Shown here one piece after another: positions 9,077-25,615 of a stretch of 44,224 nt of DNA. Both the position numbers and the translations under genes were made by a program. Where the stretch lies: positions 1 to 44,224 of the forward strand of contig CABMIB010000038.1 in NCBI GenBank assembly GCA_902386135.1, in the 5' to 3' direction. Source of the DNA: an uncultured archaeon (lineage in GTDB: Archaea; Halobacteriota; Methanosarcinia; Methanosarcinales; Methanoperedenaceae). The notes below the pieces were generated by a model. It was not told where the DNA came from, made no database searches, and saw nothing but the letters and a program-made list of their open reading frames with translations. The first letter of the stretch is position 1. Every line of letters begins with the position of its first letter.

Positions 9077-9135
9077 GATAACCTTCGCTGAATATCATGT
9101 ACTCTAAATATTTAAAAGTGACCGACTCATGATAC

Positions 9136-10035
9136 CTACCACCACTTCATGCTCTCCCTGAACCTCGTCAGCCTCTCCCCCGCCTCCGGCTTCCTAAAAA
9201 CATACAGATGCTCATGCCCGATAAGATAAAAGTCATACTTCTTCCCGAACCACTTCTCCCTCGTGCTCTTCATCTTCCACTGAAGCTTGATGATATCCTC
9301 CCTCAGAATGAACCCCGCCTCAAGAAAGCCCATCAGCACCCTCGGCGTTATGGGCACGAAATGCTTGTTCCGCCGCGTATCCCCAATCAGGACGGCGCAG
9401 TGCTTTCCGGGCTTGAGCACGCGCATGCACTCCTGCGCGACCCTGCCCATCTCCGCGGCGAACTCAGCTATGTTATGCACGCTTGACAGGTCGCCCTCTC
9501 GGTCATGGGAATAAGGGATTATACTGGCATACGGAGGATGCGTGGCTATGAGGTCGATGGACTCGCTCCCGATCAGGTCAAGCGACCGCGCATCCCCCGC
9601 GTATGTCCTGATTTCCGGTACTTTATAATCGGCATCCAGAGGCGTATAAGCAAAATCCAGCCTGTTCCGCGCCACCATGACAGCATCTGGATTGATATCC
9701 ACAGCCACTGCGCGCCGTCCCAGAAGCTTGCACTCCACAGCAGTAGTGCCCGAGCCCGCCATCTGGTCAAGCACAATCTCGCCCGGCGCAGTATAACGAA
9801 GAATGAGGTTTCGCGGGATGTATGGCGACCAGTTGCCCCTGTAGTTTCCTACGTGCGTAGCCCAGTCGCCTCGGTCGGGGAAGCTCCAGACAGTAGTGGT
9901 TTCGGGGGTGAAGGTGGAGGGGGCGAATTGCGAAATGTTCCACTTGGGGTGGAGTTTTATTTTGGTTTCTCCGATTTCCACTTCCGGGTGGGACTGGAGG
10001 AATTGTTTGTAGTCGGTCCTTGTGATTTCGCGCAA
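9136..10035 (-). CDS. DNA (N4/N6) methyltransferase
   Basis: A 299-residue SAM-dependent DNA methyltransferase. In order: a motif X-like segment RGNWSPYIPRNLILRYT (~66-82), motif I DQMAGSGTT (~90-98), a GRRAVAVDINPDAV segment, and motif IV THPPYASIIPY (~164-174). Motif IV has His in place of the more usual Ser of TSPPY. The family methylates exocyclic amino groups of adenine or cytosine. The start is a TTG at 10035, since no upstream ATG is available. No restriction enzyme is adjacent, but the gene is divergent from the AT-rich GHKL/helicase/DndD-like block and shares its intergenic region. A near-identical decayed copy lies at 7.5-8.4 kb, so the gene has been duplicated locally. Confidence 0.9.
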   Translation of the reverse strand: MREITRTDYKQFLQSHPEVEIGETKIKLHPKWNISQFAPSTFTPETTTVWSFPDRGDWATHVGNYRGNWSPYIPRNLILRYTAPGEIVLDQMAGSGTTAVECKLLGRRAVAVDINPDAVMVARNRLDFAYTPLDADYKVPEIRTYAGDARSLDLIGSESIDLIATHPPYASIIPYSHDREGDLSSVHNIAEFAAEMGRVAQECMRVLKPGKHCAVLIGDTRRNKHFVPITPRVLMGFLEAGFILREDIIKLQWKMKSTREKWFGKKYDFYLIGHEHLYVFRKPEAGERLTRFRESMKWW

Positions 10036-10132
10036 GGATCGATATTGATCTGATTAGTAATATATAAATTAATATGATCTAATTTTGTGAATATAATTAA
10101 GTTGGAAGCAAATTGGAAATAAGTTGTAACTA
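10036..10132 (+). promoter_or_regulatory. Divergent promoter region of the GHKL/DndD-like block
   Basis: AT-rich 97-base gap between the divergent methyltransferase and GHKL ATPase genes. A strong archaeal TATA box (aatatataaat, ~10058-10068) would place the plus-strand start near 10090, about 40 bases before ATG 10133. The flanks gatctgatta… and …atgatcta around the TATA are partly symmetrical and could be an operator. Confidence 0.5.
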
Positions 10133-11956
10133 ATGGAATATCACGAAAGTTCACCGAAAGGTTTAGATCTAAGCAAAATTAATTCTGTACCAGAAAAAAT
10201 GAAAAGAGAACTCGACCCTGAATTAATGAATCAGCCACAAAAGGGCCATATGAGGGTTAACAGTAAGATTTTAAAAGATTTGAGTTCAGGAATTTATAGT
10301 AATCCGGCGAACGCTATTAAAGAATTAATAATAAATTCCTACGATGCTGATGCAACGAAAGTTACAATTAGGGCAAAACCTGATCTTGACTCTTTTACAA
10401 TTATTGATAATGGGATTGGAATGAATTGTGATGATTTTGATACAAAGTTTGCATGGATTAGCCACTCTGAAAAAAGGAGAGAGGGGGATTTCACAAAAAT
10501 AATTAAAAGGCCTTTAGTAGGTAGGTTTGGAATTGGCTTCATTAGTGCATCACAATTATGCAACAAAATGACGGTTATTTCATCGAAAAAAGGAGATCCA
10601 AAGAAATTTAAAGCAGAGATTGATTTTAGCCAATATAAAAACCATAACCCCTATGAAGAGCCCAAAGATATTTATGAAGTCAGTGAATTTGATTTTATAA
10701 TTCTAGAAGAAGACCCCGCCGAACATTACACAATTATCATTTTATCTGAATTAAGCCCTGAATTTGTTGATATTCTTAATGACAAGGAAATTGAAGAAAA
10801 ACTTCAAGAGATGGATGAAAAAGAAAGAAAAAAATTTGAAAGGATAAAATTAGAGGATATTTCATTTGAGCAGATTATAAATCTAATTATAGAAAAAAAT
10901 GTTGATGAAGTTGAAAAAAAAATCGGTACATATTGGCAATTTATTTTTGATATAGCAAATACTGTACCTGTTCAATATTTACAGAAAGGTCCTTTATATA
11001 TTAATGAAAAAGATCCAATTTTAGAAAGTATAATTAATGATATTGTTAGATATGATTTTACGGTTGAAATTGATGGAATAACTTTAAAAAAACCAATCAT
11101 TCTCCCAAATGATAAGGATATCGTCAATGAAGGTACTGATTATAATGTTTATTTTATGAAACATGAAGTCGTCATTAATGAAAAATTATTAAAATTTAGA
11201 GGATATTTCTATAATCAAAAAAGGAGAATAAAACCCGTAGATTTCCAAGGTTTACTACTAAGGATACGCAATGTTGCCATAGGAAAAGCTGATAGAAACT
11301 TTTTAGATTATCCATGGGCTGAAAAAATGTTTATGACTTGGACTTTTGGTGAAATCTATGTTGACGAAGGTTTAGAAGATGCATTAAATATTAACCGTAA
11401 TTCATTTGCAATAAATCATCCTCATTATATTTATTTAAAAAAATACATACATGATTATTTACATGATATAATTGTAAAAAGAAGTCGAACAAGATACACA
11501 GAAAGAAAAAATGAGGCACGTTCTTTTCAAGAAGGAGTACGGAAGAAAAATATCTCCAAAATTTTTGCAAATTATAATCCTCAACCTAAACATATTGTAG
11601 ATACAAAAAACGATTCTGATGTGGAGATTGTCCAACCTAGTAAAATAGAACCAAAATCGAATCAAAATATCATTCCGGATGTGGAGATTGTCCAGCTCAG
11701 TAAAATGGAACCAAAATCGAATCAAAATATTAGCTCCCAACAAATTGAATTTTCAGAACCAGTTCATATTGATGATAAACTGAAAACCATTATTATAAAC
11801 GATCGTCATGAAATTTTTAAAAAACTTGCAAGGAATGATCGTGAAGCATTAAAGGAAATACTCATTTTATTCAAAATTGCTCAAAAAAACTCCCAAGGTA
11901 ATTCAGAAAAATTGGAGAAGCTATTTCTTGAAAGTCTTAAAGAGTGGAGACGATGA
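10133..11956 (+). CDS. GHKL (Hsp90/MutL-like) ATPase of putative defence block
   Basis: A 607-residue ATP-binding protein. The Bergerat fold motifs are intact: N-box ELIINSYDADA (64-74), DNGIGM (92-97) and GRFGIGFISA (130-139). The remainder (~150-470) is unassigned. A Lys/Glu-rich C-terminal region follows, containing two tandem 20-residue repeats (nt 11618-11737, period 60 bases) built on DVEIVQ…EPKSNQNI. GHKL ATPases of this type occur repeatedly in prokaryotic defence loci. The gene opens an AT-rich block and overlaps the next gene by four bases (ATGA), so they are coupled. I recognise the domain but not a named family; its partners and substrate are unknown. Confidence 0.85.
   Translation: MEYHESSPKGLDLSKINSVPEKMKRELDPELMNQPQKGHMRVNSKILKDLSSGIYSNPANAIKELIINSYDADATKVTIRAKPDLDSFTIIDNGIGMNCDDFDTKFAWISHSEKRREGDFTKIIKRPLVGRFGIGFISASQLCNKMTVISSKKGDPKKFKAEIDFSQYKNHNPYEEPKDIYEVSEFDFIILEEDPAEHYTIIILSELSPEFVDILNDKEIEEKLQEMDEKERKKFERIKLEDISFEQIINLIIEKNVDEVEKKIGTYWQFIFDIANTVPVQYLQKGPLYINEKDPILESIINDIVRYDFTVEIDGITLKKPIILPNDKDIVNEGTDYNVYFMKHEVVINEKLLKFRGYFYNQKRRIKPVDFQGLLLRIRNVAIGKADRNFLDYPWAEKMFMTWTFGEIYVDEGLEDALNINRNSFAINHPHYIYLKKYIHDYLHDIIVKRSRTRYTERKNEARSFQEGVRKKNISKIFANYNPQPKHIVDTKNDSDVEIVQPSKIEPKSNQNIIPDVEIVQLSKMEPKSNQNISSQQIEFSEPVHIDDKLKTIIINDRHEIFKKLARNDREALKEILILFKIAQKNSQGNSEKLEKLFLESLKEWRR
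11618..11737 (+). repeat. Tandem 60-bp duplication within the GHKL ATPase gene
   Basis: Two consecutive 60-base units, starting gatgtggagattgtcca at 11618 and again at 11678, with a few substitutions. They encode two 20-residue repeats in the linker before the C-terminal helices. The unit length keeps the frame. Confidence 0.9.
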
Positions 11957-12945
11957 CCCGTCAAGAAAGGAGTGACGATGAAATTTTCAATACTCCACAA
12001 AAGAGATATATTCGCCATGAAATATGGGCGAAATATGCCATTAAAAGAAAAGAAAAGGACGATTTAGATTTTATCAAGTATTTAACTTTTCCAGCATTAG
12101 GTTGTTACGATGTAAAAATTTTAAATGACCTTGAATTGCTTGAGACTAAAGAAATAGAAGGAATTACCACGTATGGAAGTGTGGGTTTTTGCGAAAAGGA
12201 TCCTCATAAATTTGCTTTAATCCAACAAAAATTGCCTGGAGCAAGATATTGTCAGGGGACATATGAAGATATCGTTGGTGCATGTGGTGAAGAATTGCCA
12301 ATTAGGGCTCAACGATGGTTCCCGTTTGATGTAATAAACTTAGACTTCACTTCACCCCTCTTTTCTAGTGATAGAAATAAAATCACAAATGCCATAAAGA
12401 GAACATTTAATATTCAAAAACTAAAATCAAAATCTTTTACATTATTTTTAACCTTGCCAGCACTTAGAAGTGCCGACACAGAGGATGGGAAAAATAGACT
12501 TGATGATATCTTAAAAAATAATTTGGCAAAACCGAACATGGAGGAATTTAAAAGGATTTTTTTTGAAAAATATCCCTTTATTGATATAAACAATAGAATT
12601 TATGAACAATTAGAATATATTGAATTTCTGCTCATTTCAATACCAAAAATGATAGTGAGTATGGGAACAAGAGAAAATTTTGATATTATATGCAATGAAA
12701 GATTTTCATACATTGGTGACCATTATGATGGTAGAAAAAATGGCACGTATATGGTTAAGTTCGTTTTTGAATGTGAGTACATAGGAAGTGTAGATGGTTT
12801 TTCGCTCCCTCATCCAGTTGATTATTTAGCTGAGAAATACCCTCAACGAATTATCGAATTTTTTAATAGAAATTTTATAGATATTAATCAATTTTTTGAG
12901 TCTAATGGAGAGTTAAAAACAAAATATTGTAGTTTAGAATATTAA
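11953..12945 (+). CDS. Rossmann-like, possibly methyltransferase-related protein
   Basis: A 330-residue protein of uncertain identity. The segment YGSVGFCEKDPHKFALIQQKLPGARYCQGTYED (~70-103) has the glycine-containing strand, acidic residue at the end of strand 2 and following helix of a SAM-binding Rossmann fold. FDVINLDFTSPL (~126-137) sits where motif IV would be. No canonical NPPY or PCQ catalytic motif is visible, so catalytic activity is doubtful. The frame is also open from GTG 11944, but ATG 11953 overlaps the GHKL stop as ATGA and is preferred. It is co-transcribed with the GHKL gene; a 62-base gap with a new promoter separates it from the helicase. Confidence 0.6.
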   Translation: MTRQERSDDEIFNTPQKRYIRHEIWAKYAIKRKEKDDLDFIKYLTFPALGCYDVKILNDLELLETKEIEGITTYGSVGFCEKDPHKFALIQQKLPGARYCQGTYEDIVGACGEELPIRAQRWFPFDVINLDFTSPLFSSDRNKITNAIKRTFNIQKLKSKSFTLFLTLPALRSADTEDGKNRLDDILKNNLAKPNMEEFKRIFFEKYPFIDINNRIYEQLEYIEFLLISIPKMIVSMGTRENFDIICNERFSYIGDHYDGRKNGTYMVKFVFECEYIGSVDGFSLPHPVDYLAEKYPQRIIEFFNRNFIDINQFFESNGELKTKYCSLEY

Positions 12946-12975
12946 TTAATAACATGCATAGTCCACAAAAGTTTA

Positions 12976-13007
12976 GATAATAGTATATATAAAAATTATT
13001 AAAATAT
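12976..13007 (+). promoter_or_regulatory. TATA box for the helicase gene, leaderless start
   Basis: The string gtatatataaaaa at ~12983-12994 is a strong archaeal TATA box. A start site 25-27 bases beyond its centre falls at or a few bases after the ATG at 13008. There is no purine-rich ribosome binding site before the ATG. The helicase mRNA is therefore predicted to be leaderless and transcribed separately from the GHKL pair. Confidence 0.55.
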
Positions 13008-15122
13008 ATGATTTTTCCACAATCGAACCTCAACCCTTCATATGATTCTGACGATGATATTTTGAATTCATTTTACATTCCAGTTCTTTCACAAGCGGTT
13101 TCATATTGTCGTTTAGCTGGATTTTTTTCTTCAAGCACGCTAGCCGTCGCTGCAAGAGGTATGTCGAATTTTATTAAAAATAATGGCAAAATGAAATTAA
13201 TTGTTGGAGCAAAATTACAGAAAAATGATGTTGAAGCGATTCAGCAGGGTTTAGAAGAACCAGAAAAATTAATCGAGAAAATATGTATGCAGGATTTATA
13301 CACAAGAAATAATGAATTCGTAAATGACCATGTTAGCGCGTTAGGCTGGATGGTGGCTAATAAAACCCTTGAAATCAAAGTGGCAATTGTAACTGATGAT
13401 ACAGGTATACCATTAGATGTAGACACAATAGAAAGAAAAGGTATCTTTCACCAGAAAGTAGGTATCCTTCAAGATAAAGATGGCAATTCAATTTCCTTTA
13501 GTGGCTCGATAAACGAAACCGCAGCTGCATGGATTCATAATATTGAAGAATTTAAAGTATTTAGAAGCTGGGAAGAGGGCGAAAAAGAATATCTCCAAAG
13601 TGATTGTCGTAAATTTGAAAAATATTGGAACGGTTCTGGAAAAAATGTCAAGATCATGAATATTCCAGAAGCGGTCAAAGAAAAATTAATTGAAATAGCT
13701 CCGAAAGATATAACAGAATTAAATTTAGAAAAATGGCAAATAAAGGAAGGAAGTAACAAAAAAAAAATCAAATTACTGGATTATCAAAATCAAGCCATCG
13801 CAAATTGGCAAAATAATAATAAAAAAGGGATTTTTGAGATGGCTACGGGAACTGGAAAAACATTTACAGCTTTGGGTTGTTTAGAAAAAGTAAGTGAAAC
13901 TTACAAGAATCTTGTTGTAATTATTTCGTGTCCATATCAGCATTTAGTCCAACAATGGAGGAGGGAATCTGAAAAATTCGGATTTAATTTTGACCAAATC
14001 ACTGCTGATAGTTCAAATTCGTCGTGGAAAAAACAATTAGTAGATTCTCTAACAGATATTTATTTAGGATATAAAGATAAACTCATTATTTTTACTACCC
14101 ATCAAACGCTTTCATCTGATGATTTTATAAATATAATAAAATCTAACAAGAATAATATGTCTTTTTTCTTAATTGGAGATGAAGTTCATGGCTTGGGTGC
14201 AGAAAAAAGTAGAATGGGATTAATAAATGAATATGAATTAAGATTGGGACTTAGTGCAACACCGAAAAGATGGTTAGATTTTGAAGGTACAGATGCAATA
14301 TACAATTATTTTGGCGATGTTGTTTATGAATTTTCTTTAGAAGATGCTGTATATAGAGTAAATCCAATGACTGGCCAAACGTACCTTACTCCTTATCGAT
14401 ATTTGCCGCGATTTGTATCCCTAACTGTGGATGAATTAGAGGATTACATAGATAAAACTAAAGCGATTGCAAGGAATTTTAATAAAGCAAAAAGTAATAA
14501 AGAAAAACAAAGATTTTTGGAGAGCATATTATTTAAACGGGCAAATATTTTAAAAAATGCTGTAGAGAAATACAAAATATCTGAAGAAATACTTGATGGA
14601 CTTGGTTCTTCTATTAAATGGACAATCATCTATTGTAGCCCTCAACAAATCAATAGAGTGATGGAGATAATTAATAAGAGGGGTATTGTTGCTCATCGTT
14701 TTACAATGGAAGAGGGGACTACTCCAGATAAAAAATATAACAATCTCTCGAAGAGAGACTTTCTTTTGCAGAAGTTTGCAGAAAATAAGTATCAGGTTTT
14801 AGTTGCAATGAAATGTTTGGATGAAGGTGTAGATGTTCCACCAGCAAGAATAGCAATTTTGATGGCAAGTAGTGGCAATCCTAGAGAATATATCCAGCGG
14901 ATTGGAAGGATTATTCGAAGATATCCTAATAAAAATGAAGCTAATATATATGATATCGTGGTGGTGCCATCTTTTGATAAACTTCCTTCAGAATTTATAG
15001 ATATTGAACTGAGAATTTTTGAAAAAGAGTTGTCAAGATGTGAAGAAATCGCTAGAATCGCTATTAATAATTCTGAGGCTTTAACATTAATATATAAAAT
15101 AAAAAATAGATTAAGGAAATGA
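13008..15122 (+). CDS. PLD-nuclease / superfamily 2 helicase fusion
   Basis: A 704-residue two-part protein. Residues ~1-225 form a phospholipase D-like domain with the HxK motif FHQKVGIL (H148, K150) and a downstream FSGSINET. Residues ~255-690 form an SF2 helicase: Walker A MATGTGKT (278-285), DEVH box (391-394) instead of DEAH, GLSATPK motif III, LDEGVDVP motif V and QRIGRIIRR motif VI. PLD-helicase fusions are typical of restriction and defence loci and of Dnd-linked islands. The gene begins a tightly packed run: the next small gene starts five bases after its stop. It is very AT-rich, like its neighbours. Nuclease plus translocase activity on DNA is the expected biochemistry; the target is unknown. 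Confidence 0.88.
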   Translation: MIFPQSNLNPSYDSDDDILNSFYIPVLSQAVSYCRLAGFFSSSTLAVAARGMSNFIKNNGKMKLIVGAKLQKNDVEAIQQGLEEPEKLIEKICMQDLYTRNNEFVNDHVSALGWMVANKTLEIKVAIVTDDTGIPLDVDTIERKGIFHQKVGILQDKDGNSISFSGSINETAAAWIHNIEEFKVFRSWEEGEKEYLQSDCRKFEKYWNGSGKNVKIMNIPEAVKEKLIEIAPKDITELNLEKWQIKEGSNKKKIKLLDYQNQAIANWQNNNKKGIFEMATGTGKTFTALGCLEKVSETYKNLVVIISCPYQHLVQQWRRESEKFGFNFDQITADSSNSSWKKQLVDSLTDIYLGYKDKLIIFTTHQTLSSDDFINIIKSNKNNMSFFLIGDEVHGLGAEKSRMGLINEYELRLGLSATPKRWLDFEGTDAIYNYFGDVVYEFSLEDAVYRVNPMTGQTYLTPYRYLPRFVSLTVDELEDYIDKTKAIARNFNKAKSNKEKQRFLESILFKRANILKNAVEKYKISEEILDGLGSSIKWTIIYCSPQQINRVMEIINKRGIVAHRFTMEEGTTPDKKYNNLSKRDFLLQKFAENKYQVLVAMKCLDEGVDVPPARIAILMASSGNPREYIQRIGRIIRRYPNKNEANIYDIVVVPSFDKLPSEFIDIELRIFEKELSRCEEIARIAINNSEALTLIYKIKNRLRK

Positions 15123-15126
15123 TAAA

Positions 15127-15318
15127 ATGGGTGATGGTAAAATTAACGAGCCAATTTTGAAAGGGATCATAGAAAACAGCGAAAAAGATGAAAAAATAAG
15201 CAAATTTTTAATAGACTTGTTATATGAAGAGGCTGAACATCCAGGAGGGCAATGGCGCTGGAGAGAAAATTACAGGAAAAAGATAGAGCAGTATCTGTAT
15301 AATGAAGTGTTGCTATGA
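15127..15318 (+). CDS. Small protein coupled to the DndD-like ATPase
   Basis: A 63-residue acidic protein. An N-terminal helix is followed by LLYEEAEHPGGQWRWRENYRKKIEQYL, with a conspicuous Gly-Gly-Gln-Trp-Arg-Trp core. I believe it belongs to the small proteins commonly encoded beside DndD-type ATPases in DNA-modification islands; this is from memory and should be treated as tentative. It starts five bases after the helicase stop and its own stop overlaps the next ATG as ATGA (15315-15318). Such coupling suggests a stoichiometric subunit or adaptor for the ATPase. Confidence 0.7.
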   Translation: MGDGKINEPILKGIIENSEKDEKISKFLIDLLYEEAEHPGGQWRWRENYRKKIEQYLYNEVLL

Positions 15319-17285
15319 AAATTGATAAAATTATATTGAAAAATTATCGTCAATTTAAAGATGCTGAAATTTCATTCAAAGAGAAATCTAATTTTGATCT
15401 ACATGTTATTATTGGCAAAAATGGTACTGGAAAAACAAACATATTAAGTGCTATTAACTGGTGCTTATATGGTGACGAACCTAATCTATCAAAGGACTCC
15501 CGACAATTACCGCTTTTGAATCTTAAATCAATGGAGGAAGGAGATTATGGTGAAGATAAAGAGATTATGGTTGAAGTGTGGGGAAAAACTTTAAACAATA
15601 AATTTGTAATATTCACTAGAAAAACGATATACAATATATACGAAAGTGGAAAAAACCTCCCAACGCGTATAAGTTCTGAATTTGAAGTAAAAGTTACAGA
15701 TAATAAAGGAAATACGGAGATATTCAAAGATGAAGAATCTGAATCTCAAGTAGAGCGTTTCGTTCCCAAGAGGATAAGGGAATTTTTCTTTTTTGATGGC
15801 GAAAGATTAGATAATTATTTTAAAGAAGCTACTGGTCAAAATATCCGGCATGCAATATTTGAAATATCTCAAATTGATTTATTGGAAAATAGAGTAGAGA
15901 GTAGACTCTCTGATACCTTGAAAGATTTAAGAAGGGAAGCGGGTAAAGAAAATCCAGAAATTGAAGACACAAGAAGTCAACTAGAAACTAATGAAAAACA
16001 ACTTAAAGAATTTGATGAGCAAATAAAAGAATGTAATAAGCAAATCGCTTTAGCAAAAGATAAAATAAAAGACTATGATGAAAAATTAAGAGGAATACCT
16101 GATATCGAAGCTGTTGAGGTAAGAAGAGACGAAATTAAAACATTAAAACAGCAAAAAAAAGAACTTCTTGATGAAAAATTAAAAGAAAAAGAGAATCTTT
16201 TATTTGAATATGGCAAGGTTGTAATGCTTTATTCTCCTATTAAACAGTCTATAAAAATCATTGAAGAAAAAAGAAAAAAGGGAGAATTACCGCCTACTCA
16301 AGATAAAAGCTTATTAGAAAATATGGTCAAAGAAAAATCTTGCCTTATTTGTGGTAGACCATTTGATGCTGATGTGAAAAAAAGAGTAGAAGATTTGTTA
16401 AAAGAGATCAAATTATCTTCTGAGGTGGCAAAGCAACTTGAGTATATGGAGGGTCCATTGCATAATTTTGAAGATAAAGTTATGAATTTTAATAATATTA
16501 TGCAAAAAATAACAAAAGAAGTCAAAGGTTATGAGGATGATCTAGCTGATTATGAGCAAGAACTTATTAAAATAGATGCAGAAACTAGCGGATATAATTC
16601 CGAAAAAATAAAAGATTGGCATAAAGAACGCAAGAAATTTGAAGATTCTTTTACTCAGAATCTGCAAAAATTAGGTGGAATTGATGGAAAGAGAAAGGAT
16701 ATTCTTAAAAACATCGAAAATTTGAAGGGGCAATTGGATGATGAGCTTAAAAAAGAAAAAAAGGTTAAAAAATTAAAAAATCAAATAGATTTCTGCACTA
16801 AAGCGCTGAATGTTGTCAAAAAAACAAAAGAAATCATAATGAGTGAAACAAGGAAGAAAATAGAAGATAGAACTAAAGATATCTTTTTTGGACTTTTATG
16901 GAAAAAAGCAACTTTCAAAGATGTTAAGATTGAAGAAGATTATAGCATCAATCTTATCCATTCACTTGGATACGAATGTTTGGGTTCAGTAAGTGCTGGT
17001 GAAAGAGAACTTTTGGCATTATCTTTTACACTTGCATTACATGAAGTCTCTGGCTTTGATTCACCAATCTTAATAGATACACCAGTGGCTAGAATATCTG
17101 ACGAGCATAGAGTGAATTTTGGCAAAATATTTTCAGAAGTTAGTAGCAATAAACAGACAATATTGTTATTCACTCCAGCAGAATACTCTAAAGATATCAA
17201 GGAATTATTAGATGTAAGAGCCAGCAATAGATTCGCTTTAAAACTATCATCAGATGAAAAAGAAACTCGAGTAGAGGTATTATAA
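15315..17285 (+). CDS. DndD-like SMC/Rad50-type ATPase
   Basis: A 656-residue ATPase with the Rad50/SMC plan. Walker A GKNGTGKT (34-41) lies in the N-terminal half. Long coiled-coil arms (~195-335 and ~360-530) flank a zinc-hook-like CLICGRPF (C343, C346). The signature SAGERELL (560-567) and Walker B ILIDTPVARISDEHR (585-599) close the head. The closest family by layout is DndD, the ATPase of phosphorothioate DNA modification. The other members of that pathway (DndC PAPS-reductase-like enzyme, DndB, classical DndE) are not encoded in this window. It overlaps the preceding small gene by four bases; the next gene begins directly after its stop. Function in DNA modification or invader sensing is inferred. 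Confidence 0.85.
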   Translation: MKIDKIILKNYRQFKDAEISFKEKSNFDLHVIIGKNGTGKTNILSAINWCLYGDEPNLSKDSRQLPLLNLKSMEEGDYGEDKEIMVEVWGKTLNNKFVIFTRKTIYNIYESGKNLPTRISSEFEVKVTDNKGNTEIFKDEESESQVERFVPKRIREFFFFDGERLDNYFKEATGQNIRHAIFEISQIDLLENRVESRLSDTLKDLRREAGKENPEIEDTRSQLETNEKQLKEFDEQIKECNKQIALAKDKIKDYDEKLRGIPDIEAVEVRRDEIKTLKQQKKELLDEKLKEKENLLFEYGKVVMLYSPIKQSIKIIEEKRKKGELPPTQDKSLLENMVKEKSCLICGRPFDADVKKRVEDLLKEIKLSSEVAKQLEYMEGPLHNFEDKVMNFNNIMQKITKEVKGYEDDLADYEQELIKIDAETSGYNSEKIKDWHKERKKFEDSFTQNLQKLGGIDGKRKDILKNIENLKGQLDDELKKEKKVKKLKNQIDFCTKALNVVKKTKEIIMSETRKKIEDRTKDIFFGLLWKKATFKDVKIEEDYSINLIHSLGYECLGSVSAGERELLALSFTLALHEVSGFDSPILIDTPVARISDEHRVNFGKIFSEVSSNKQTILLFTPAEYSKDIKELLDVRASNRFALKLSSDEKETRVEVL

Positions 17286-17720
17286 ATGTCCAATATACCA
17301 GACCGAATAAACGTTGAAAAGGGTGAAAGAGATAATTTGTATGATAAAATTGAGCTATTTAAAGGTAAATCTAGAAAAGAACAGTTTCTTTTTGCAATGG
17401 CTATTGGATTTAAGAATAAGGTTAAGCGTCGTTTAGAAACTACAGATGGTTTCTTTTTAATTAAGGATATGCGATTAGAAGACGAAGTGTTAATAAATGC
17501 AATTGCAATCAACGATTTTAATTCTGTAGAAGTATTATCTAATAAGGAAGATGTATTTAAGATAGCGGAAGAGTATGCTCATGCCGGCATAAAACTATTA
17601 TACGATAAAATGAAATCCACTCAATTTGGGTCATTCGAAAAACAATTTGAAAAAGATATAATTGATGCGTATAAGGAATTAAATTTGGGTGAGTATGGTG
17701 AAAAAAATACTTCTAGTTGA
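17286..17720 (+). CDS. Dnd-system-associated-like small protein
   Basis: A 144-residue protein starting at the base after the ATPase stop. The segment KSRKEQFLFAMAIGFKNKVKRRLE (~29-52) and the later EEYAHAGIKLLYDKM (~96-110) resemble a small protein family found next to Dnd genes (annotated as Dnd system-associated protein 4), with a characteristic FAxAxGF helix. The match is by pattern recall only. No catalytic motif or membrane segment is visible. The 3' end overlaps the start of the radical SAM gene by 26 bases, so all genes from the helicase on appear to be one operon. Confidence 0.65.
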   Translation: MSNIPDRINVEKGERDNLYDKIELFKGKSRKEQFLFAMAIGFKNKVKRRLETTDGFFLIKDMRLEDEVLINAIAINDFNSVEVLSNKEDVFKIAEEYAHAGIKLLYDKMKSTQFGSFEKQFEKDIIDAYKELNLGEYGEKNTSS

Positions 17721-19023
17721 GCCAAAATTCCCTACAAAAACAAAAAGCAAAAATCATAAAAACTTCCTTCCAATTGGTCTTTTGAAACTTGCAGCTTATT
17801 ATGGAAACAAAAATTATGATGTAGAATTGGTTCGCGGGAAGGCGAAACCAAGAAAACTCGAGGTTCCTTCAACTGTAGAAATAACAAGCCTTTTTACCTA
17901 TTGGTCTGAGCAGGTTTGGGATTGTGTCGAGTTTTATCGTGCACTATTTCCAGATTCAAAACGCACGGAGATAAGAATTGGTGGAATTTATGCAAGTTTA
18001 AGATTTGATGACCCCGATTTCAAAGCAAAGTGCCAGAAATACGAAGTTGCTTCTTTTAGAGGAGTTGAAAAAGAAGCAGAGAAGTTTCCACCTGATTACA
18101 AACTTGTAATGAATGGTGAAAATAATATTGATTATCAGATAGTTCACTCATCAAGAGGATGCTTTAGGAACTGCGCCTTTTGTGGTACATGGATAATAGA
18201 GCCAGAGTTTGAACCAAAGAGAAGCATAAAAAATATTATCGAGCCAGGATTGGAATTGGGCCTAAGAAATCTTGTTTTTTATGATAATAATTTATTATAC
18301 AATCCCTATATTGAAGAGCTTCTGGAAGAATTGATCGAACTGAAGAGGCAGAAAAAAATAGGATGGTGCGAATCTCAGAGTGGTTTTGATGGAAAACTAC
18401 TACTTAAAAATCCAGAGTTAGCAACAATGCTTAAAAAAGCAGGGTTTAGGGAGCCACGGATAGCTTGGGACTGGGGATATGAGAAGCATGATGAAGTCGA
18501 AAAACAAATACAAATATTACAAGATGCTGGATTTAATCGAAAAGACATCTATATTTTCATGATTTATAACTGGGATCTAGACTTTGAAGAAATGGAAAAG
18601 AAACGAATGGAGTGCTACAAATGGAAGGTTCAAATTTCTGATTGTAGGAATAGGCCGTTGACTCAATTACATGACCATTATAAACCATTAAAAGATCAAA
18701 ATGATGGATTGGATTATCATATTAATCCAAACTGGACTGATGCAGAAGTGAAACAATTCAGGAAAAACGTAAGAAGGCAGAATATTATTGTCAGACAAGG
18801 TTTGAAGTATCATAGTAAACTCTTAGAAAATAAGAAAAACTTTTCTCGAGAGAGATTTCGAGAATTAAAGGCAATGTCAATTGAAGACGCAAGAAAATAT
18901 CTACCAGATTTATGGGAACCTTCAGAAATTACTCCACCGAAGAATAGGGACAAATGGATTGTTGAAAAAGCAAAACATGTTGATTATATACAGTTACCGC
19001 TATTCGCAGAATTAGTAGCGTAA
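17695..19023 (+). CDS. Radical SAM enzyme with B12-binding-like N-terminus
   Basis: A 442-residue radical SAM protein. The N-terminal ~110 residues (KKILLVEPKFP…FLPIGLLKLAAYYGNKNYDVELVRG) follow the layout of the cobalamin-binding-like domain of class B radical SAM enzymes. The cluster motif is RGCFRNCAFCG (C156-x3-C160-x2-C163). Downstream, EPRIAWDWGYEKHDEVEKQIQILQDAG follows the barrel strands. The C-terminal ~120 residues are basic and could bind nucleic acid. ATG 17695 has a gggtgag ribosome binding site; a GTG at 17689 is also in frame. It overlaps the previous gene and ends the AT-rich run. A radical SAM enzyme as the terminal gene of a DndD/helicase operon is unusual. It could modify DNA or a nucleotide, but no substrate can be read from the sequence. 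Confidence 0.85.
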   Translation: MVKKILLVEPKFPTKTKSKNHKNFLPIGLLKLAAYYGNKNYDVELVRGKAKPRKLEVPSTVEITSLFTYWSEQVWDCVEFYRALFPDSKRTEIRIGGIYASLRFDDPDFKAKCQKYEVASFRGVEKEAEKFPPDYKLVMNGENNIDYQIVHSSRGCFRNCAFCGTWIIEPEFEPKRSIKNIIEPGLELGLRNLVFYDNNLLYNPYIEELLEELIELKRQKKIGWCESQSGFDGKLLLKNPELATMLKKAGFREPRIAWDWGYEKHDEVEKQIQILQDAGFNRKDIYIFMIYNWDLDFEEMEKKRMECYKWKVQISDCRNRPLTQLHDHYKPLKDQNDGLDYHINPNWTDAEVKQFRKNVRRQNIIVRQGLKYHSKLLENKKNFSRERFRELKAMSIEDARKYLPDLWEPSEITPPKNRDKWIVEKAKHVDYIQLPLFAELVA

Positions 19024-19052: not shown

Positions 19053-19811
19053 CTAAACGTTACTATCAAAGAATTTAGTCTTCTGTATATCATGCTCTAG
19101 CGCCAGATTGTAGAGATTTATTAGTGGCTCATATGTTCTTACTTTGCAGATTTCTCTGATATCCCTAAAGAGAGCGCGCCCAATTTCTTTATCATACTTA
19201 TTCCTTTTATCTTCAGGTATGATTATAAATAATCTCGTTCTTTGTCCAGATTTATAAAGGTCAAGAAGCCTCCCAAGCCCTTTTGTCACATCCGTGGTAT
19301 GCTCCACTTCAAAAGCAAACTCAGGAATCAACATATCAGTGTCGCCACCAAACCACAGCACATCTATACGGCTCACTACATCCACGATTTTAGGATAAGA
19401 AAAAAGCTCGGGAAATTCCCTTATAGTGGCAATTTCTTCAAGAGGTTTCTTCATAAATATCTTTTTGGCATCATTAACCGCCGCTGATGTTTCATAACCG
19501 TATATTTTTCCGAGTTCAAGCAGCATCCCCTGTACATCTTCATGCCCCGGATTCGGATTCTTTTTAGGGTCGAACTCTTCAAGGGGCTTTTCTTCCCTGA
19601 GATACCATATCCCGCTCCCTTTCTCTTCCTGATAGAAAATGCTGTATTGTTGCAGGGTTCGTCTAACAGTAAACTTCCATGTCGGATTTGTTTCAGTTTT
19701 CGGATGACCCTCTATTTTTGAGTAAATCTCATCCAGATGTCCAGAATTTCCAATCTTTGAGAGGGCTTCCCTTACAACGTCCTTCCATGTCAATCTACTT
19801 TCATCCTTCAT
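19053..19811 (-). CDS. HARE-HTH protein with nuclease-like C-terminal domain
   Basis: A 252-residue protein. Residues ~7-72 match the HB1/ASXL/restriction-endonuclease HTH (HARE-HTH) domain: LTWKDVVREALSKIGNSGHLDEIY…TWKFTVRRTLQQYS. The C-terminal half has a PD-(D/E)XK-like arrangement, RIDVLWFG…AFEVEHTTDVTKGLGRLL, with ExE where ExK is usual, so nuclease activity is plausible but not certain. HARE-HTH domains are linked to chromatin or modified-DNA recognition and to restriction enzymes. It faces the radical SAM gene convergently with a 29-base gap. A truncated paralog of its C-terminus survives at 26104-26245. Confidence 0.8.
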   Translation of the reverse strand: MKDESRLTWKDVVREALSKIGNSGHLDEIYSKIEGHPKTETNPTWKFTVRRTLQQYSIFYQEEKGSGIWYLREEKPLEEFDPKKNPNPGHEDVQGMLLELGKIYGYETSAAVNDAKKIFMKKPLEEIATIREFPELFSYPKIVDVVSRIDVLWFGGDTDMLIPEFAFEVEHTTDVTKGLGRLLDLYKSGQRTRLFIIIPEDKRNKYDKEIGRALFRDIREICKVRTYEPLINLYNLALEHDIQKTKFFDSNV

Positions 19812-20380
19812 TTACTGACTTAAATAAAATTATTTGATCTTAACGCTTTCGAGGGTAATGTGGATTCCTTTCAGCAGGAGTTCGTACTGGGTTCGTTGCT
19901 TATGTGCACGGCTTTTTAATGCGGAGTGGTTGCTCCGGGAACATATCGGGCGCCGGATTTTAATAGTTAAATTTTAATAAATCTCCAGCGCGCGTGCAAA
20001 GATGGAAAATCAACTACAGAGGACACAGAGTTCACAGAGATTCGTGGTTTTTTCCTCTGTGTCCTCTGTGCACTCTGTGGTTTTTATCTTACACGTTTTT
20101 CAAAGCGTGGCGGTTGCCCTGGGTATATCGGCGCCGGAGAATTATTACTGACAGCCGATTTAATGTGAAATGGAACACGGATAACACGGATGACACGGAT
20201 ACGCACGGATTTCGTATCCGTGTAAATCCGTCCGATCCGTGTCATCCGTGTTCTAAGTCGCTGAGGCAGGTTTTTAATACAACTATAAAAAACACAAAGC
20301 ATAGCAGCAATTTTCTTTGCGGCCTTTGCGCTCTTTGCGGTGAGCCTTATATTTTACCCCAGAAGTTGAATAGACACTAA
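19812..20380. repeat. Composite repeat block 1
   Basis: No gene. In order: a gatcttaacgctttcgaggg segment shared with 30260-30280; gttcgt repeats (19876-19898); the GGCGCC/AT/GGCGC-type palindrome (~19947-19994, one arm with an extra G); a cacagag hairpin (20012-20083); a second gggtatatcggcgccgg motif (~20121); an inverted 'acacgga/tccgtgt' repeat (20172-20253); and a cgcaaag-type arm (20305-20345). Open frames here translate to repeat-derived peptides. Confidence 0.8.
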
Positions 20381-20697
20381 CTCTAACGAAAAATCCATCA
20401 AAATTCGCACTCAAAGACGACGGCTTCTACAAAATAAAATCGCGAACAGAATACCCTGTATGCTGGTCGTATCCAGACGGCTATGAATGCAGATATTCCG
20501 TCAAAGGACGAACGCTCCACGTCACTCACGATAACCCCAACAAAGTTTGGCTGGATGTTTATCCGGGGATATTTAACGGCAGTTTGCTTGAGAGTTATGA
20601 GGTGTTAATTAGAGATAATAAAGTCGAGTCGTACAGAAGGGATTATCCTGATGCGCAAACGGGTTTCATGGTGCTGTGCTGCCGTTCTACTTCATGA
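20381..20697 (+). pseudogene. Repeated coding fragment E, copy 1
   Basis: An open stretch of about 95 codons without a start codon, ending in TGA 20695-20697. It reads (S)KFALKDDGFYKIKSRTEYPVC… and later VWLDVYPGIFNGSLLESYEV. The same product is encoded at 22814-23013, 23893-24190 and 26605-26923. The 25 bases upstream (cagaagttgaatagacacta) are also shared with copy 4. I do not recognise the protein; it looks like the C-terminal part of a beta-rich domain carried along with the repeat block. Confidence 0.6.
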
Positions 20698-20803
20698 CAT
20701 TGATTTCCATGAGTTCGTACGATTAAAAGAGAGAATCCTTCTAGGAAGGACATAAAAGAGAGAAGAGAGAAAAAAGGAGAGATTAGCGATAAGCACAGCG
20801 ATT
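20698..20803. other. Short gap after fragment E copy 1
   Basis: Contains a single gagttcgtacgat remnant of the repeat block, then purine-rich agagaagagagaaaa sequence at 20755-20783. No gene is supported. Confidence 0.4.
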
Positions 20804-21151
20804 TTAATAAACCTCAGCCACTATCTTATCGCCTTCAAGCCAGATATCAGCATTCTCTTTTTTACCCAGCGCCCTGTCGATTTCCTCAGGAATGCCGAGC
20901 ACCCTTCTTCCTCCGCTCACTGTTATCTTCCGTTTAAACACTATGGTAGGTTTCCGGAATTTACCAGCAATCTCCAATGCTTTTTCGCTTGATTCCGCAT
21001 CTACATACTGTTCTCCACAGTTTGGGCAGCGTGTGCCTGTAAGCCTTGTTATTACTATTTCCCTCCCCTGGACCATCGAAGTGAGGGTGATATCCTTTGC
21101 CTCTTCTGTCTGTGTTCCGCAGACAACACATTTAATTTTCGTTTCGCTCAT
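20804..21151 (-). CDS. YgiT/MqsA-type zinc-finger antitoxin
   Basis: A 115-residue protein. The N-terminal zinc finger has CVVCGTQT and TRCPNCGEQYVDAESSEKAL, the two CxxC pairs of YgiT-type antitoxins. A C-terminal AbrB-like beta segment follows (VSGGRRVLGIPEEIDRALG…ADIWLEGDKIVAEVY). ATG 21151 has a ggag ribosome binding site 11 bases upstream; a GTG at 21163 overlapping the toxin stop is also in frame. It lies directly behind the DUF4258 gene, its usual partner. It probably neutralises that toxin and represses the pair through DNA binding. Confidence 0.87.
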   Translation of the reverse strand: MSETKIKCVVCGTQTEEAKDITLTSMVQGREIVITRLTGTRCPNCGEQYVDAESSEKALEIAGKFRKPTIVFKRKITVSGGRRVLGIPEEIDRALGKKENADIWLEGDKIVAEVY

Positions 21152-21159
21152 ATTTTTTA

Positions 21160-21444
21160 TCACTCCTGTTCTCGAATTACTGTTACAACAATCAACTCAT
21201 CTTTAACTATGAATGTAATACGGATTCTTTTGTTATCGCTGTCCGCTCCCTGCATACCATACCGGATATCTCCCCATTTATCAAGTTCCTGGCTATAAAA
21301 TGAGCCGCAGCTCAGCACAGATTCTATATCTTCATAAAATATATCCCTCTCAATCATTCTCTCAAGTGTGTGGTCTGCTATCAGGTATTTTCCATGCTGG
21401 AATAGTTGCAGTGCCTTTTTGCGGACATCCTCAAACTGCTCCAT
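21160..21444 (-). CDS. DUF4258 toxin-like protein
   Basis: A protein of the DUF4258 type, regularly paired with YgiT-type zinc-finger antitoxins and of RelE-like fold. Core sequence: YLIADHTLERMIERDIFYEDIESVL, then DIRYGMQGADSDNKRIRITFIVKDELIVVTVI. The His followed by RMxER and the terminal strand block fit the family. ATG 21444 (MEQFEDVRKK) gives 94 residues, the usual size. An upstream ATG (21471) and GTG (21522) are in frame, but a TATA-like aaagtatata lies at ~21479-21489 and would put the transcript start near 21460, favouring the internal ATG. The gene precedes the antitoxin on the minus strand. Confidence 0.82.
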   Translation of the reverse strand: MEQFEDVRKKALQLFQHGKYLIADHTLERMIERDIFYEDIESVLSCGSFYSQELDKWGDIRYGMQGADSDNKRIRITFIVKDELIVVTVIREQE

Positions 21445-21522
21445 TTTATCACTACATTTTCTCTTATACATCCCTTTAGATATATACTTTATTGCTCTGT
21501 TCTTATCCTGTACTAAATACAC

Positions 21523-22061
21523 GCTTATTAGTTCGTACGAGTTCGTATGAGTTCGTTGTTTACGCTATGCGGTTTTTAGTGTGAAGTGACTGCTTCGGGA
21601 ACATATCGGCGCCAGACTTTAATATTTAAATAATTATAAATATCCGGCGCGCGTGCAAAAAATGAAAATCAACTACAGAGGACACGGAGAACACAGAGAG
21701 TTGTGTTTTTTTTCTCTGTGTCCTCTGTGCACTCTGTGGTTTTTATCTTGCACGGTTTTCAAAGCATGGCGGTTGCCTTGGGTATATCGGCGCTGGGCAA
21801 TTAATATTTAGAATGTGATTAATTTGCCGCGCCTTACACAGTAAAGTTCGCAAAGAATGCAAAGCAGAGGCTTCTTTGGGTACTTCGGCGCGCAAAAAAT
21901 CTGCGTTTATCTGCGGTTTTTAATGTAAAATGGCTGTATCGGGAATATATCGGCGCCAAGAATTATATTTTAATGTTTATAATATTTTAACGCACGTTAT
22001 CAGACAGCTATCACCATAAGAATTATACCCTCTCATGTTTATTATATCCATGTGATTTGAA
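21523..22061. repeat. Composite repeat block 2
   Basis: No gene. It holds gttcgtacgagttcgtatgagttcgttg (21530-21556), the GGCGCC…GGCGC palindrome (~21607-21651), a cacagag hairpin (21671-21742), a second ggtatatcggcgctgg motif (~21780), a half cgcaaag repeat (~21838-21866), a ctgcg repeat (~21901-21920) and a third gggaatatatcggcgcc motif (~21940-21958). The last ~50 bases supply the upstream region of the vapB-like gene. Confidence 0.8.
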
Positions 22062-22286
22062 ATGGAAGCTGTTAAAGGCTATGAGTTGACCAAAAAGGGT
22101 TTGACAATATCTCGCAGCCTGTTAGAAAGTGCCGGATTAGAATCCGACATAGATGTATTTGCTAAAGACCATACCATTATTATTAAATCCAGGTCTATGA
22201 CCGACCGCGTTCGGGGAATCGTAAAAAAGACGCCTCTTACAGCCGAAAAACTGGATGAATTATATCATACATCTAAAGGTGTATAG
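22062..22286 (+). CDS. AbrB/VapB-type antitoxin
   Basis: A 74-residue protein. The N-terminal part (KGYELTKKGLTISRSLLESAGLESDIDVFAKDHTIIIKSR) has the swapped-hairpin AbrB pattern. The C-terminal tail (GIVKKTPLTAEKLDELYH) is the usual toxin-binding region of archaeal VapB proteins. The stop codon is followed immediately by the TTG start of the PIN-domain gene. The predicted role is neutralisation of the PIN nuclease and autorepression. Confidence 0.85.
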   Translation: MEAVKGYELTKKGLTISRSLLESAGLESDIDVFAKDHTIIIKSRSMTDRVRGIVKKTPLTAEKLDELYHTSKGV

Positions 22287-22811
22287 TTGCTTCTCTCCAA
22301 ATTCGCCGCAGATGAACGCATATTTATTGATGCGAATATCTTCATCTACAATGCGCTGGATGACCCGGGTTATGCAGAATCCTGCTCTGATTTCTTAAGG
22401 CAGGTCGAGACGAATAAACTAAAGGGAGTGATCACTCCTCATGTCATGGATGAAGTTTTATTTAAGATACTGATAGCTGAGGCATCACAGCACATTGAAA
22501 AATTCACTCTGCCAAATCTGAAAAAGGAAATGAAAAGTTCTGGCTTTTCTTCAAAAGTCTATAAGCCGGTAAAAGAATACAGCGATTATCTGACAGAACT
22601 CACTTATGGCGGTCTGGAAATATTAACAGTCAACGGGGGAACAGTTGAGAGATCAACCGACCTCGGGTTGCAATACGGTTTACTGACTACTGATGCAATA
22701 CATCTTTCCACAATGAAACAATATGGGATAGTCAATATAGCGACCAACGACTCCGATTTCGAGAAAGTAAAGTCCATAAACATCTATAAGCCAGAAAAAT
22801 CAACAGTCTGA
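22287..22811 (+). CDS. PIN-domain (VapC-like) RNase toxin
   Basis: A 174-residue PIN-domain protein. The acidic residues are present in order: IFIDANIFIYNAL (first Asp, ~15), HVMDEVLFK (Glu), LLTTDAIHLST (third Asp) and IATNDSDFEKV (fourth Asp). PIN toxins of VapBC systems cut tRNA or rRNA. The start is a TTG directly abutting the antitoxin stop, so expression depends on coupling. Its last codons run into sequence shared with repeat fragment E (cagaaaaatcaa also occurs at 26608-26619), so the C-terminus may have been altered by repeat recombination. Confidence 0.9.
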   Translation: MLLSKFAADERIFIDANIFIYNALDDPGYAESCSDFLRQVETNKLKGVITPHVMDEVLFKILIAEASQHIEKFTLPNLKKEMKSSGFSSKVYKPVKEYSDYLTELTYGGLEILTVNGGTVERSTDLGLQYGLLTTDAIHLSTMKQYGIVNIATNDSDFEKVKSINIYKPEKSTV

Positions 22812-22813
22812 AG

Positions 22814-23013
22814 TTTAAAGGACGAATACTGCACGTTACGCGCGATAACCCGAACAAAGTCTGGCTGGATGTCTATCCATGGGTGTTTTACGGCAGTTTG
22901 CTTGAGAGTTATGAGGTGGTGATTAGAGATAATAAAGTCGAATCTTACAGAAGGGATTATCCTGAGGCGCAAGCGGGGTTTCACTGTGCTGCGCTGCCGT
23001 TCTACTTCATGAC
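22814..23013 (+). pseudogene. Repeated coding fragment E, copy 2 (truncated, frameshifted)
   Basis: Begins mid-fragment at the FKGRILHVTRDNPNKVWLDVY segment directly after vapC and continues through YGSLLESYEVVIRDNKVES. One extra G around 22974-22978 shifts the last ~12 codons relative to copies 3 and 4. The first ~40 codons present in the other copies are missing. Confidence 0.65.
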
Positions 23014-23607: not shown

Positions 23608-23877
23608 ATGGATCCATTAACGATATTAATAGTAATTCTCTTGATTCTCTTGCTATTGAGAATGGGCAGTTTATTAACAACATTAATAGTTATTATCTTA
23701 ATTCTCTGGCTATTAGGAAGAGTCGGTACGGATTTATTAACAACATTGATAGTAATTCTCTTGATTCTCTGGCTATTAGGAATTGTAAGCTCTACTACTA
23801 TTGGAGGACTAATTTATGTGTTATTGATAATCGCCATAGTCTTGATACTGGTCAGAATCATTAAAAAAGAAAAATAA
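23608..23877 (+). CDS. lmo0937-family-like small membrane protein with internal repeats
   Basis: An 89-residue, almost wholly hydrophobic protein. The C-terminal ~45 residues (LLTTLIVILLILWLLGIVSS…GGLIYVLLIIAIVLILVRII) match the two-helix lmo0937/DUF5670 family, which is widespread and of unknown function, often stress-linked. The N-terminus adds two further copies of the first helix (TILIVILLILLLLRMGS and LLTTLIVIILILWLLGRVG), so the gene has undergone tandem in-frame duplication visible at DNA level. ATG 23608 follows a gaggatgagaag ribosome binding site. It lies alone between repeat blocks. Confidence 0.8.
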   Translation: MDPLTILIVILLILLLLRMGSLLTTLIVIILILWLLGRVGTDLLTTLIVILLILWLLGIVSSTTIGGLIYVLLIIAIVLILVRIIKKEK

Positions 23878-23892
23878 AATATTTTATTTTTT

Positions 23893-24736: not shown

Positions 24737-24740
24737 GTGT

Positions 24741-25588: not shown

Positions 25589-25615
25589 ATGATAAAATAT
25601 GCTAAGAGATGTGGC

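Follow-up and report, generated by a model that had tools for sequence, protein, structure and literature searches.

PbeABCD modules, which were described by Xiong 2019 (PMC6459918) and which Rakesh 2024 (PMC10853773) presented again under the name CxC-ATPase/DndE system, carry their genes in the order PbeA-PbeB-PbeC-PbeD and are expected to act on DNA without a self-mark. About 60% of PbeAC modules (320/553) occur without dndCD (PMC6459918). PbeC and PbeD are paralogues of DndD and DndE of the phosphorothioation system DndABCDE. DISARM combines DrmA/B/C/E with DrmMI or DrmMII, and the MORC/paraMORC systems (Iyer 2008, PMC2292703) and BbrUII-type enzymes bring together a GHKL ATPase, an SF2 helicase and a nuclease in a restriction-type operon. 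Neither Pbe paper links a radical SAM enzyme to Pbe (PMC6459918, PMC10853773), and radical SAM is unmentioned in Iyer 2008 (PMC2292703). A literature search, with subscription papers and bioRxiv mostly outside its reach, gave no description of such an enzyme linked with PbeABCD, DISARM or DGQHR. Here we analysed a 44,224-nucleotide contig (CABMIB010000038.1, hereafter the window) of an uncultured Methanoperedenaceae archaeon, in which a PbeABCD-like core lies between a GHKL pair and a radical SAM (rSAM) gene.

A PbeABCD core in a seven-gene operon

The initial annotation had proposed seven AT-rich genes in one orientation, and the ORF check found all seven predicted genes on the + strand, at the coordinates given below, in a block with a GC content of 0.30-0.34 against 0.42-0.50 in the flanks. 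The product of pbeA (13008-15122, +), a fusion of an HKD (PLD) nuclease with an SF2 helicase, matched PADLOC model PDLC02707 with 780 bits over residues 5-691, TIGR04095 with 434 bits and ResIII with 88 bits, and its HKD (HQK...GSIN), Walker A and DEVH motifs were intact. PbeC (15315-17285, +), a DndD-like ABC ATPase of the CxC clade, scored 715 bits against PDLC02712 and 138 bits, under the cut-off, against the DndD model TIGR03185. The PbeC of the window has a CLIC hook, which we left out of the evidence because it is not universal among PbeC proteins. The 63-aa PbeB (15127-15318, +) was assigned by its place between PbeA and PbeC and by homologues in the same position at loci L086 (49 bits) and L097 (54 bits), with a 73-aa ORF placed likewise in L082. 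PbeD (17286-17720, +), a DndE-like protein of 144 aa, reached 36 bits against TIGR04062 'dnd_assoc_4', whose cut-off is 74 bits, and its homologues follow PbeC in about 20 loci.

By score and position PbeA, PbeB, PbeC and PbeD are all present, and because these four predicted genes form a PbeABCD module, the core of the operon is of a known kind. The PLD-SF2 helicase, the DndD-like ATPase with a CLIC hook and the Dnd-associated-like protein of the initial annotation were thus borne out. Its description of the whole as an undescribed system was not, since four of the seven genes are PbeABCD, and it holds for the rSAM partner, for which the libraries and papers searched gave no description. A full match to one named system was ruled out, just four of the seven genes being Pbe. 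Neither the 63-aa and 144-aa proteins nor ORF2 and rSAM matched a PADLOC model, the GHKL protein matched by its ATPase domain only, no operon protein matched a DrmA or DrmB model, the window carries no DISARM genes, and the genome of the window contained no DrmA homologue at 1e-30. Compared with the founding PbeABCD systems, the locus has no DndCDEA, and it carries rSAM after PbeD and the GHKL-ORF2 pair before PbeA.

The first gene (10133-11956, +) encodes a MutL/MORC-like protein whose annotation as a GHKL ATPase was confirmed (PF13589, 78 bits); its nearest named families, BbrUII-type REases and MzaB, correspond to the N-terminal part only. Unlike in the MORC/paraMORC systems, the GHKL protein is paired here with ORF2 (11944-12945, +) and rSAM, and GHKL homologues lie upstream of ORF2 and rSAM in L082 and L123 and, more remotely, in L083 and L118. 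The GHKL protein thus has ORF2 as a conserved partner. ORF2 itself matched the NF047698 PP_RS20740 family with 60 bits, below the cut-off, and appears to be a degenerate class-I methyltransferase-like Rossmann protein. The earlier label 'Rossmann/MTase-like' keeps some ground in that class-I methyltransferases were the top PDB matches, with weak fold support (AF2 model pLDDT 71.5, TM about 0.3), and loses it in that a five-member alignment shows NLDF where a DNA methylase would carry NPPY. The candidacy of ORF2 as an active DNA methylase was weakened by this replacement and by the poor fold scores.

The radical SAM enzyme and its neighbourhoods

The last gene (17689-19023, +; start likely at ATG 17695) matched PF04055 with 37 bits and phrog_9298 with 86 bits, and a CxxxCxxC motif was present in every homologue checked; a PDB sequence search gave no match. 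The AF2 model (pLDDT 92.4) has a B12-domain-like N-terminal Rossmann domain, and its nearest folds were AprD4, CysS, MiaB and OxsB, which share the predicted Rossmann domain, the rSAM barrel and the CxxxCxxC motif. The best of these matches, AprD4, had a TM score of 0.60 at 13% identity, so neither substrate nor chemistry can be transferred. In contrast to these enzymes, rSAM lacks DxHxxG in its sequence, and no B12-binding Pfam match was found; the enzyme may nevertheless use cobalamin, as exceptions to DxHxxG are known among cobalamin rSAM enzymes. Of the proposed 'class B-like radical SAM', the radical SAM assignment therefore stood (PF04055, CxxxCxxC, predicted fold), and the class B features DxHxxG and a B12-binding domain in Pfam did not. 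MiaB is a tRNA enzyme and OxsB a nucleotide enzyme, and their place among the nearest folds of the model lends support to rSAM as a putative maker of a self-mark. We counted against such a role that the top fold match, AprD4, dehydrates sugars. A viperin-like identity was unsupported, with no viperin family match and viperin only as a distant fold match (TM about 0.32).

Among 83 related rSAM loci, 25 were labelled Pbe, 22 DISARM (DrmA/B/C/E), 6 SNF2/ParB-like and 6 GHKL, two of the GHKL-labelled loci carrying a Pbe or DISARM label too. No recognised module was present in 24 of the 83, and about half of these were close to the end of their contig on one or both sides. The family occurs next to a number of unrelated restriction systems, in bacteria as well as in archaea. 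The gene lies directly 3' of PbeD in 11 loci and of DrmE in 13, with gaps of -40 to 277 bp. Two checks proposed in the initial annotation turned out positive in other genomes: the whole seven-gene order was found again at L082, in a Nanoarchaeota MAG, and the helicase and the ATPase are co-conserved with rSAM, as PbeABCD and rSAM stand together in 25 other loci. The module type switched at least 19 times on the rSAM tree, with supported sister pairs Pbe/DISARM and Pbe/SNF2. PbeA lineages grouped by partner type, the rSAM label requiring 5 changes compared with 13.9 when shuffled (0/500 as low). In nine loci the gene directly after rSAM belongs to the DGQHR/DndB family (the one member tested matched PF14072), which is elsewhere associated with DNA modification of the Dnd and Dpd types.

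Some adjacency between rSAM and these modules is expected without joint function because defence genes cluster. PbeABCD could then be solitary, and possibly inactive, and rSAM unrelated cargo. Solitary PbeAC modules are common (320/553, PMC6459918), and unrelated genes do accumulate in defence islands. We nevertheless consider this explanation very improbable, since in tens of loci, archaeal as well as from many bacterial phyla, rSAM and the module directly adjoin on one strand, overlapping or with little space between them, since the seven-gene order recurs in L082 and since cassette swaps fall at the rSAM gene boundary.

The swap was seen in the closest relative, L080, where homology spans a flanking methyltransferase gene and a promoter region and then resumes at the ATG of rSAM, while everything between differs. 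The divergent promoter/leader region (10036-10179), common to the methyltransferase (-) and the operon (+), is conserved in L080 despite the different cassette, with an identical TTAGTAATATATAAA. Because this DNA homology to a locus with another cassette extends through 10179, the GHKL gene more likely starts at an ATG near 10199 than at 10133, as judged from the nucleotide comparison.

Dnd genes and methylases at loci with and without rSAM

The initial annotation had noted a DndD-like ATPase unpaired with DndC, and this holds for the whole genome of the window, where no DndC was found above the cut-off (best 45.7 against 290.4 bits). At the level of DndC, a Dnd modification module elsewhere in this genome was thereby ruled out; where DndABCDE has the PAPS-reductase-like DndC, the locus has rSAM instead. 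DndC was likewise below the cut-off in all 20 other genomes with rSAM-Pbe (0/20), whereas both Dnd controls were detected (2/2, 580-586 bits). When loci were compared, DndC was present in 0/25 with rSAM-Pbe and in 7/19 Pbe loci without rSAM, the latter set coming from one archaeal phylum and the former having been gathered by rSAM homology across phyla. A methyltransferase was detected in 5 of the 25 rSAM-Pbe loci, and DndC or a methyltransferase in 5/25 compared with 15/19 (p=1.7e-4); the methylase difference taken alone was not significant at Pbe loci (p=0.18). Beside DISARM the replacement pattern parallels that beside Pbe. A methyltransferase was detected in 3/22 rSAM-DISARM loci and in 5/7 comparison DISARM loci (p=0.008); most loci with rSAM directly after DrmE have no detectable DrmM methylase. 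Methylase detection in all these counts relied on homology to chosen references and a motif, so divergent enzymes may escape it, and the motif scan alone misses L075-type enzymes. Dam-type methylases are sometimes also present at Methanobrevibacter rSAM-Pbe loci.

The operon is flanked by a type II DNA methyltransferase of the N4/N6 class (9136-10035, -; PF01555 87 bits, PDLC03376 233 bits) and by an REase-like gene with an HTH and a nuclease-like region (19053-19811, -; PDLC03534 REase_II 31 bits), neither of which was in the initial annotation. The methyltransferase might itself be the mark-maker, alone or in the first of two steps, with rSAM as an accessory. It shares its divergent promoter region with the operon, it is kept in L080 (89% identical), where the REase-like gene is merely a fragment, and its homologues also adjoin rSAM in L082, L118, L085 and L110; in L082 and L118 they follow rSAM on its own strand, at distances of 109 and 187 bp. 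We regard this role as improbable: no such methyltransferase lies within 7-10 kb of most rSAM-Pbe and rSAM-DISARM loci, and the nearby REase-like gene, its probable partner, would make it part of an ordinary R-M pair. The Methanobrevibacter filiformis type of locus (L126) is an example with rSAM and no such methyltransferase. From its distribution it is best classed as an optional neighbour of the rSAM family.

A candidate self-mark and rival roles of rSAM

Taken together, the PbeABCD identity, the adjacency, the exclusivity with Dnd, the rarity of methylases, the portability across modules, the cassette swap, the DGQHR neighbours and copies in viruses support a self-mark role, and we lean towards the view that a self-mark of the kind supplied by Dnd or methylases in other Pbe systems is here the work of rSAM. 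The locus would be a restriction-type antiviral system in which PbeABCD and the GHKL-ORF2 pair have one rSAM in common. PbeA would serve as nuclease-helicase, PbeC-PbeD as a DNA-scanning ATPase/DndE-like pair and PbeB as a small regulator. The rSAM enzyme would put a self-identifying mark on host DNA, on a base, a sugar or a DNA precursor, the sites being chosen, if DNA is marked directly, by rSAM itself or by its partners, and unmarked DNA would be attacked by PbeABCD and perhaps by GHKL-ORF2. This mark would replace the phosphorothioate of DndCDEA or the methyl group of a methylase in other Pbe systems. The earlier suggestion that rSAM supplies the modification chemistry and the helicase-nuclease the effector thus came through the comparison, with 25 co-conserved loci and no DndC over the cut-off; we infer DNA as the substrate, a self-mark as the product and the direction in which the system discriminates. 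If correct, rSAM would be a widespread candidate for self/non-self discrimination in part of the PbeAC pairs without phosphorothioate genes (about 60%, PMC6459918), and likewise in a group of archaeal DISARM systems in which no methylase could be detected. The reading can be tested, since it predicts that a DNA modification not yet described occurs in methanogens available in culture. Such strains with rSAM are Methanobrevibacter curvatus DSM 11111 (L120) and M. filiformis DSM 11501 (L126), where it accompanies Pbe, and Methanoculleus sediminis S3Fa (L140) and Methanococcoides vulcani SLH 33 (L128), where it accompanies DISARM. If confirmed, the reading would mean new chemistry for restriction-modification and, on the viral side, a new gene for counter-defence.

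Viperins, an established family of antiviral rSAM enzymes, produce ddh-nucleotides. By this precedent rSAM could be an effector whose product, a small molecule or a modified nucleotide, acts against viruses, or one that modifies protein or tRNA during infection, with Pbe and DISARM as sensors or parallel arms. Viperin is among its fold matches, if weakly, the tRNA enzyme MiaB is among the better ones, and rSAM is the last gene in many operons, a common position for effectors. We think such a role unlikely, since every partner module has its own nuclease or helicase, the fold is nearer to AprD4, CysS, MiaB and OxsB than to viperin, and the exclusivity with Dnd and the scarcity of methylases fit a maker of marks better than an additional effector.

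Only two phage records matched rSAM, and viral contigs were therefore scanned. Full-length homologues were detected in tailed-virus contigs beside terminase or DNA polymerase genes, and no restriction or effector module was found beside them, which would be odd for a toxic effector. A mark-making rSAM may, with about an even chance in our judgement, be a portable DNA-marking enzyme that is used interchangeably by PbeABCD, DISARM, GHKL-ORF2 and SNF2/ParB-like modules and carried by tailed viruses for evasion, the mark being made by radical chemistry and not by ordinary methyl transfer or phosphorothioation. Plasmid matches to rSAM were partial and about 25% identical.

PbeABCD and the radical SAM enzyme in the operon

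The seven genes of one orientation described in the initial annotation were confirmed as ORFs at 10133-19023, overlapping or closely spaced, and the block is indeed AT-rich, with a GC content of 0.30-0.34 versus 0.42-0.50 in the flanks. In profile searches the PLD-helicase gave a full-length match to the PADLOC model of PbeA (780 bits) and the DndD-like ATPase matched the model of PbeC (715 bits). The 63-aa protein occupies the PbeB position, and the 144-aa protein, a sub-cutoff member of the family 'DNA phosphorothioation-associated protein 4', sits at the PbeD/DndE position. These matches and positions identify the middle four genes as PbeABCD, a four-gene module that was originally reported to partner DndCDEA (PMC6459918) and was later presented as a CxC ABC-ATPase/DndE system (PMC10853773).

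The remaining genes encode a GHKL ATPase, a protein (ORF2) whose fold weakly resembles that of methyltransferases, and the radical SAM enzyme (rSAM). The rSAM structure model was confident (pLDDT 92.4) and predicted an N-terminal domain of the Rossmann type found in B12 enzymes, an rSAM barrel and, towards the C-terminus, a basic helical region with FRKNVRRQNI; its nearest folds were AprD4 (TM 0.60), CysS, MiaB and OxsB. The canonical DxHxxG is absent from the rSAM sequence, so the enzyme may or may not use cobalamin.

An opposite-strand type II MTase (9136-10035) and REase-like gene (19053-19811) bracket the operon, an arrangement resembling an R-M pair split by insertion of the cassette. At ~20000-30500 we observed many short dispersed repeats between small ORFs, common to locus L080 and translating into peptide-like HRVHRAHRE...LCPLCTLW, and at 29319-30170 a second radical SAM protein of SPASM type, unrelated to the operon rSAM.

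Association of the rSAM with exchangeable restriction modules

Thirteen homologues of the rSAM were aligned and one genome per species was then scanned (~85,000 species); the 80 loci kept, together with four from a phylum search, yielded 83 with a callable rSAM ORF, which were sorted according to the genes present up to 7 kb away. PbeABCD accompanied the rSAM in 25 of them, in line with co-conservation of the enzyme with the helicase and ATPase, and DISARM DrmA/B/C/E did so in 22. The DISARM label is based on DrmA, DrmB and DrmC models and, for the fourth gene, on a Pfam DrmE_C match in two short forms; the longer form (~1,060-1,110 aa) had no family match and is 'DrmE-like' from position alone. 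Six loci carried an SNF2-helicase and ParB-like-looking gene pair, six a GHKL gene (one also Pbe, another also DISARM) and two a DGQHR gene only; 24 had no recognised module, roughly half of these lying near a contig end. The rSAM started <300 bp from the PbeD end in 11 loci and from the DrmE end in 13. The seven-gene order recurs in another archaeon, a Nanoarchaeota MAG (L082), from GHKL-ORF2 through PbeA-PbeB-PbeC-PbeD to rSAM, while GHKL-ORF2-rSAM was found without Pbe in L123 and with very divergent members in L083 and L118.

In a tree of 78 rSAM sequences (support by SH-aLRT only) the four module labels switched at least 19 times. Well-supported mixed sister pairs included the window (Pbe) with L080 (SNF2), L056 (Pbe) with L156 (DISARM), L082 (Pbe) with L115 (DISARM) and L091 (Pbe) with L116 (DISARM). 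PbeA lineages, unlike those of rSAM, group by partner type, the rSAM label changing 5 times versus 13.9 when shuffled (0/500 as low). In L080, the nearest relative, whose rSAM is 78% identical to that of the window, an SNF2-type cassette stands in place of the entire GHKL-to-PbeD block. In window coordinates, DNA homology between the two covers 9135-10179 (84%), where the MTase gene next to the operon and the divergent promoter lie, and resumes at 17695-18967 (83%), beginning at the rSAM start codon. Judged from these trees and alignments, the effector is exchangeable and the rSAM is the constant part. The MTase of L080 is intact and its REase is a fragment only.

Other unusual arrangements were seen. 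In L138 (6639-13808) the genes for a 655-aa methyltransferase-motif protein and a type III restriction subunit enclose an rSAM homologue together with a 466-aa gene, which may be a type III system that has acquired an rSAM. Bacterial rSAM loci of unrecognised type (L131:5522-8056, L089:1599-3848) encode either a ParB_N protein with a 501-aa protein outside any known family directly after it, or a DndB-like/HEPN fusion, and in a Methanobacteriaceae MAG (L106) PbeA is apparently fused into a much longer ORF of 2207 aa.

Evidence for a proposed self-marking role

From gene anatomy and co-evolution, the most likely mechanism is one in which the rSAM makes a self-mark, with DNA as the presumed substrate. 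PbeC-PbeD would scan DNA, and unmarked DNA would be translocated on and/or cut by PbeA; PbeB would act as a regulator. GHKL-ORF2 would add another restriction-type arm that relies on this mark too, and GHKL proteins do occur in restriction systems (PMC2292703). For a PT-linked system, Xiong 2019 reported inhibited viral replication with no detectable cleavage (PMC6459918); Rakesh 2024 made the case for cleavage (PMC10853773).

A dndC elsewhere in the genome, the alternative raised by the initial annotation, did not emerge: the DndC model, searched against the whole assembly (120 contigs, 99% complete), gave only weak matches of 45.7 and 28.3 bits, below the cut-off of 290.4, and the Pbe module is therefore without a standard Dnd modification module there. 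Sub-cutoff matches were present in several control genomes too, and both positive-control genomes gave DndC at 580-586 bits. DndC over the cut-off was likewise detected in 0/20 whole genomes with rSAM-Pbe loci, one of which holds a 53-residue, 62-bit fragment. Among 19 Pbe loci without rSAM from the same archaeal phylum, DndC was found in 7 and a methyltransferase in 8, the other 4 including short contigs, versus 0/25 and 5/25 for rSAM-Pbe loci (Fisher, either partner p=1.7e-4; DndC 0.0013; methylase alone 0.18). A detectable methylase was present in 3/22 rSAM-DISARM loci versus 5/7 DISARM loci without rSAM; samples in these comparisons are modest and unevenly drawn, with contigs partly truncated. 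Dam-type methylases also occur in some rSAM loci, and the flanking MTase could contribute to the mark. In a divergent Pbe clade, a type II methyltransferase gene lies directly upstream of PbeA (L075:6843-7829, L077:11592-12647, L078:17721-18653); these enzymes escape a scan for the standard motif order, possibly being circularly permuted, and agree with the Pbe systems that Rakesh 2024 links to methylases.

In 9 loci a gene of the DGQHR/DndB/DpdB group, whose proteins are associated elsewhere with DNA modification by Dnd and Dpd, immediately follows the rSAM. Two Methanobrevibacter-type loci (L120:11269-14883, L125:11233-15801) encode a very large protein adjoining the rSAM, with DUF7226, DpnI_C and TFIIB repeats and, in L120, SeqA_C in addition. 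DpnI and SeqA recognise modified DNA, and by their domain content these partners, like the DGQHR group, point to DNA marking. The large proteins are candidates for unusual modified-DNA readers in methanogens; that of L120 may serve a methylase, since a Dam-type methylase lies in the same locus.

Viral homologues of the rSAM

Homologues of the rSAM with identity up to 50% were present on IMG/VR contigs, and Marinitoga camini virus 1 is another carrier. The family was assigned to phrog_9298, 'radical SAM domain protein', with no function annotated. Neighbours tested against PHROGs were phage genes, namely terminase (L167, L177), DNA primase (L172), DNA polymerase (L180) and portal (L184), and the closely examined IMG/VR rSAM contigs revealed neither Pbe nor DISARM nor any complete effector module. 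By analogy with phage methylases, we infer that carrying a self-marking enzyme would benefit the virus. In three viral loci the next gene after the rSAM encodes a 283-aa protein (L169:5101-5952, L170:5560-6411, L171:2963-3814) that carries a CxxxCxxC-like motif (GRGCQHNCNYC in L169) and resembles a second radical SAM enzyme.
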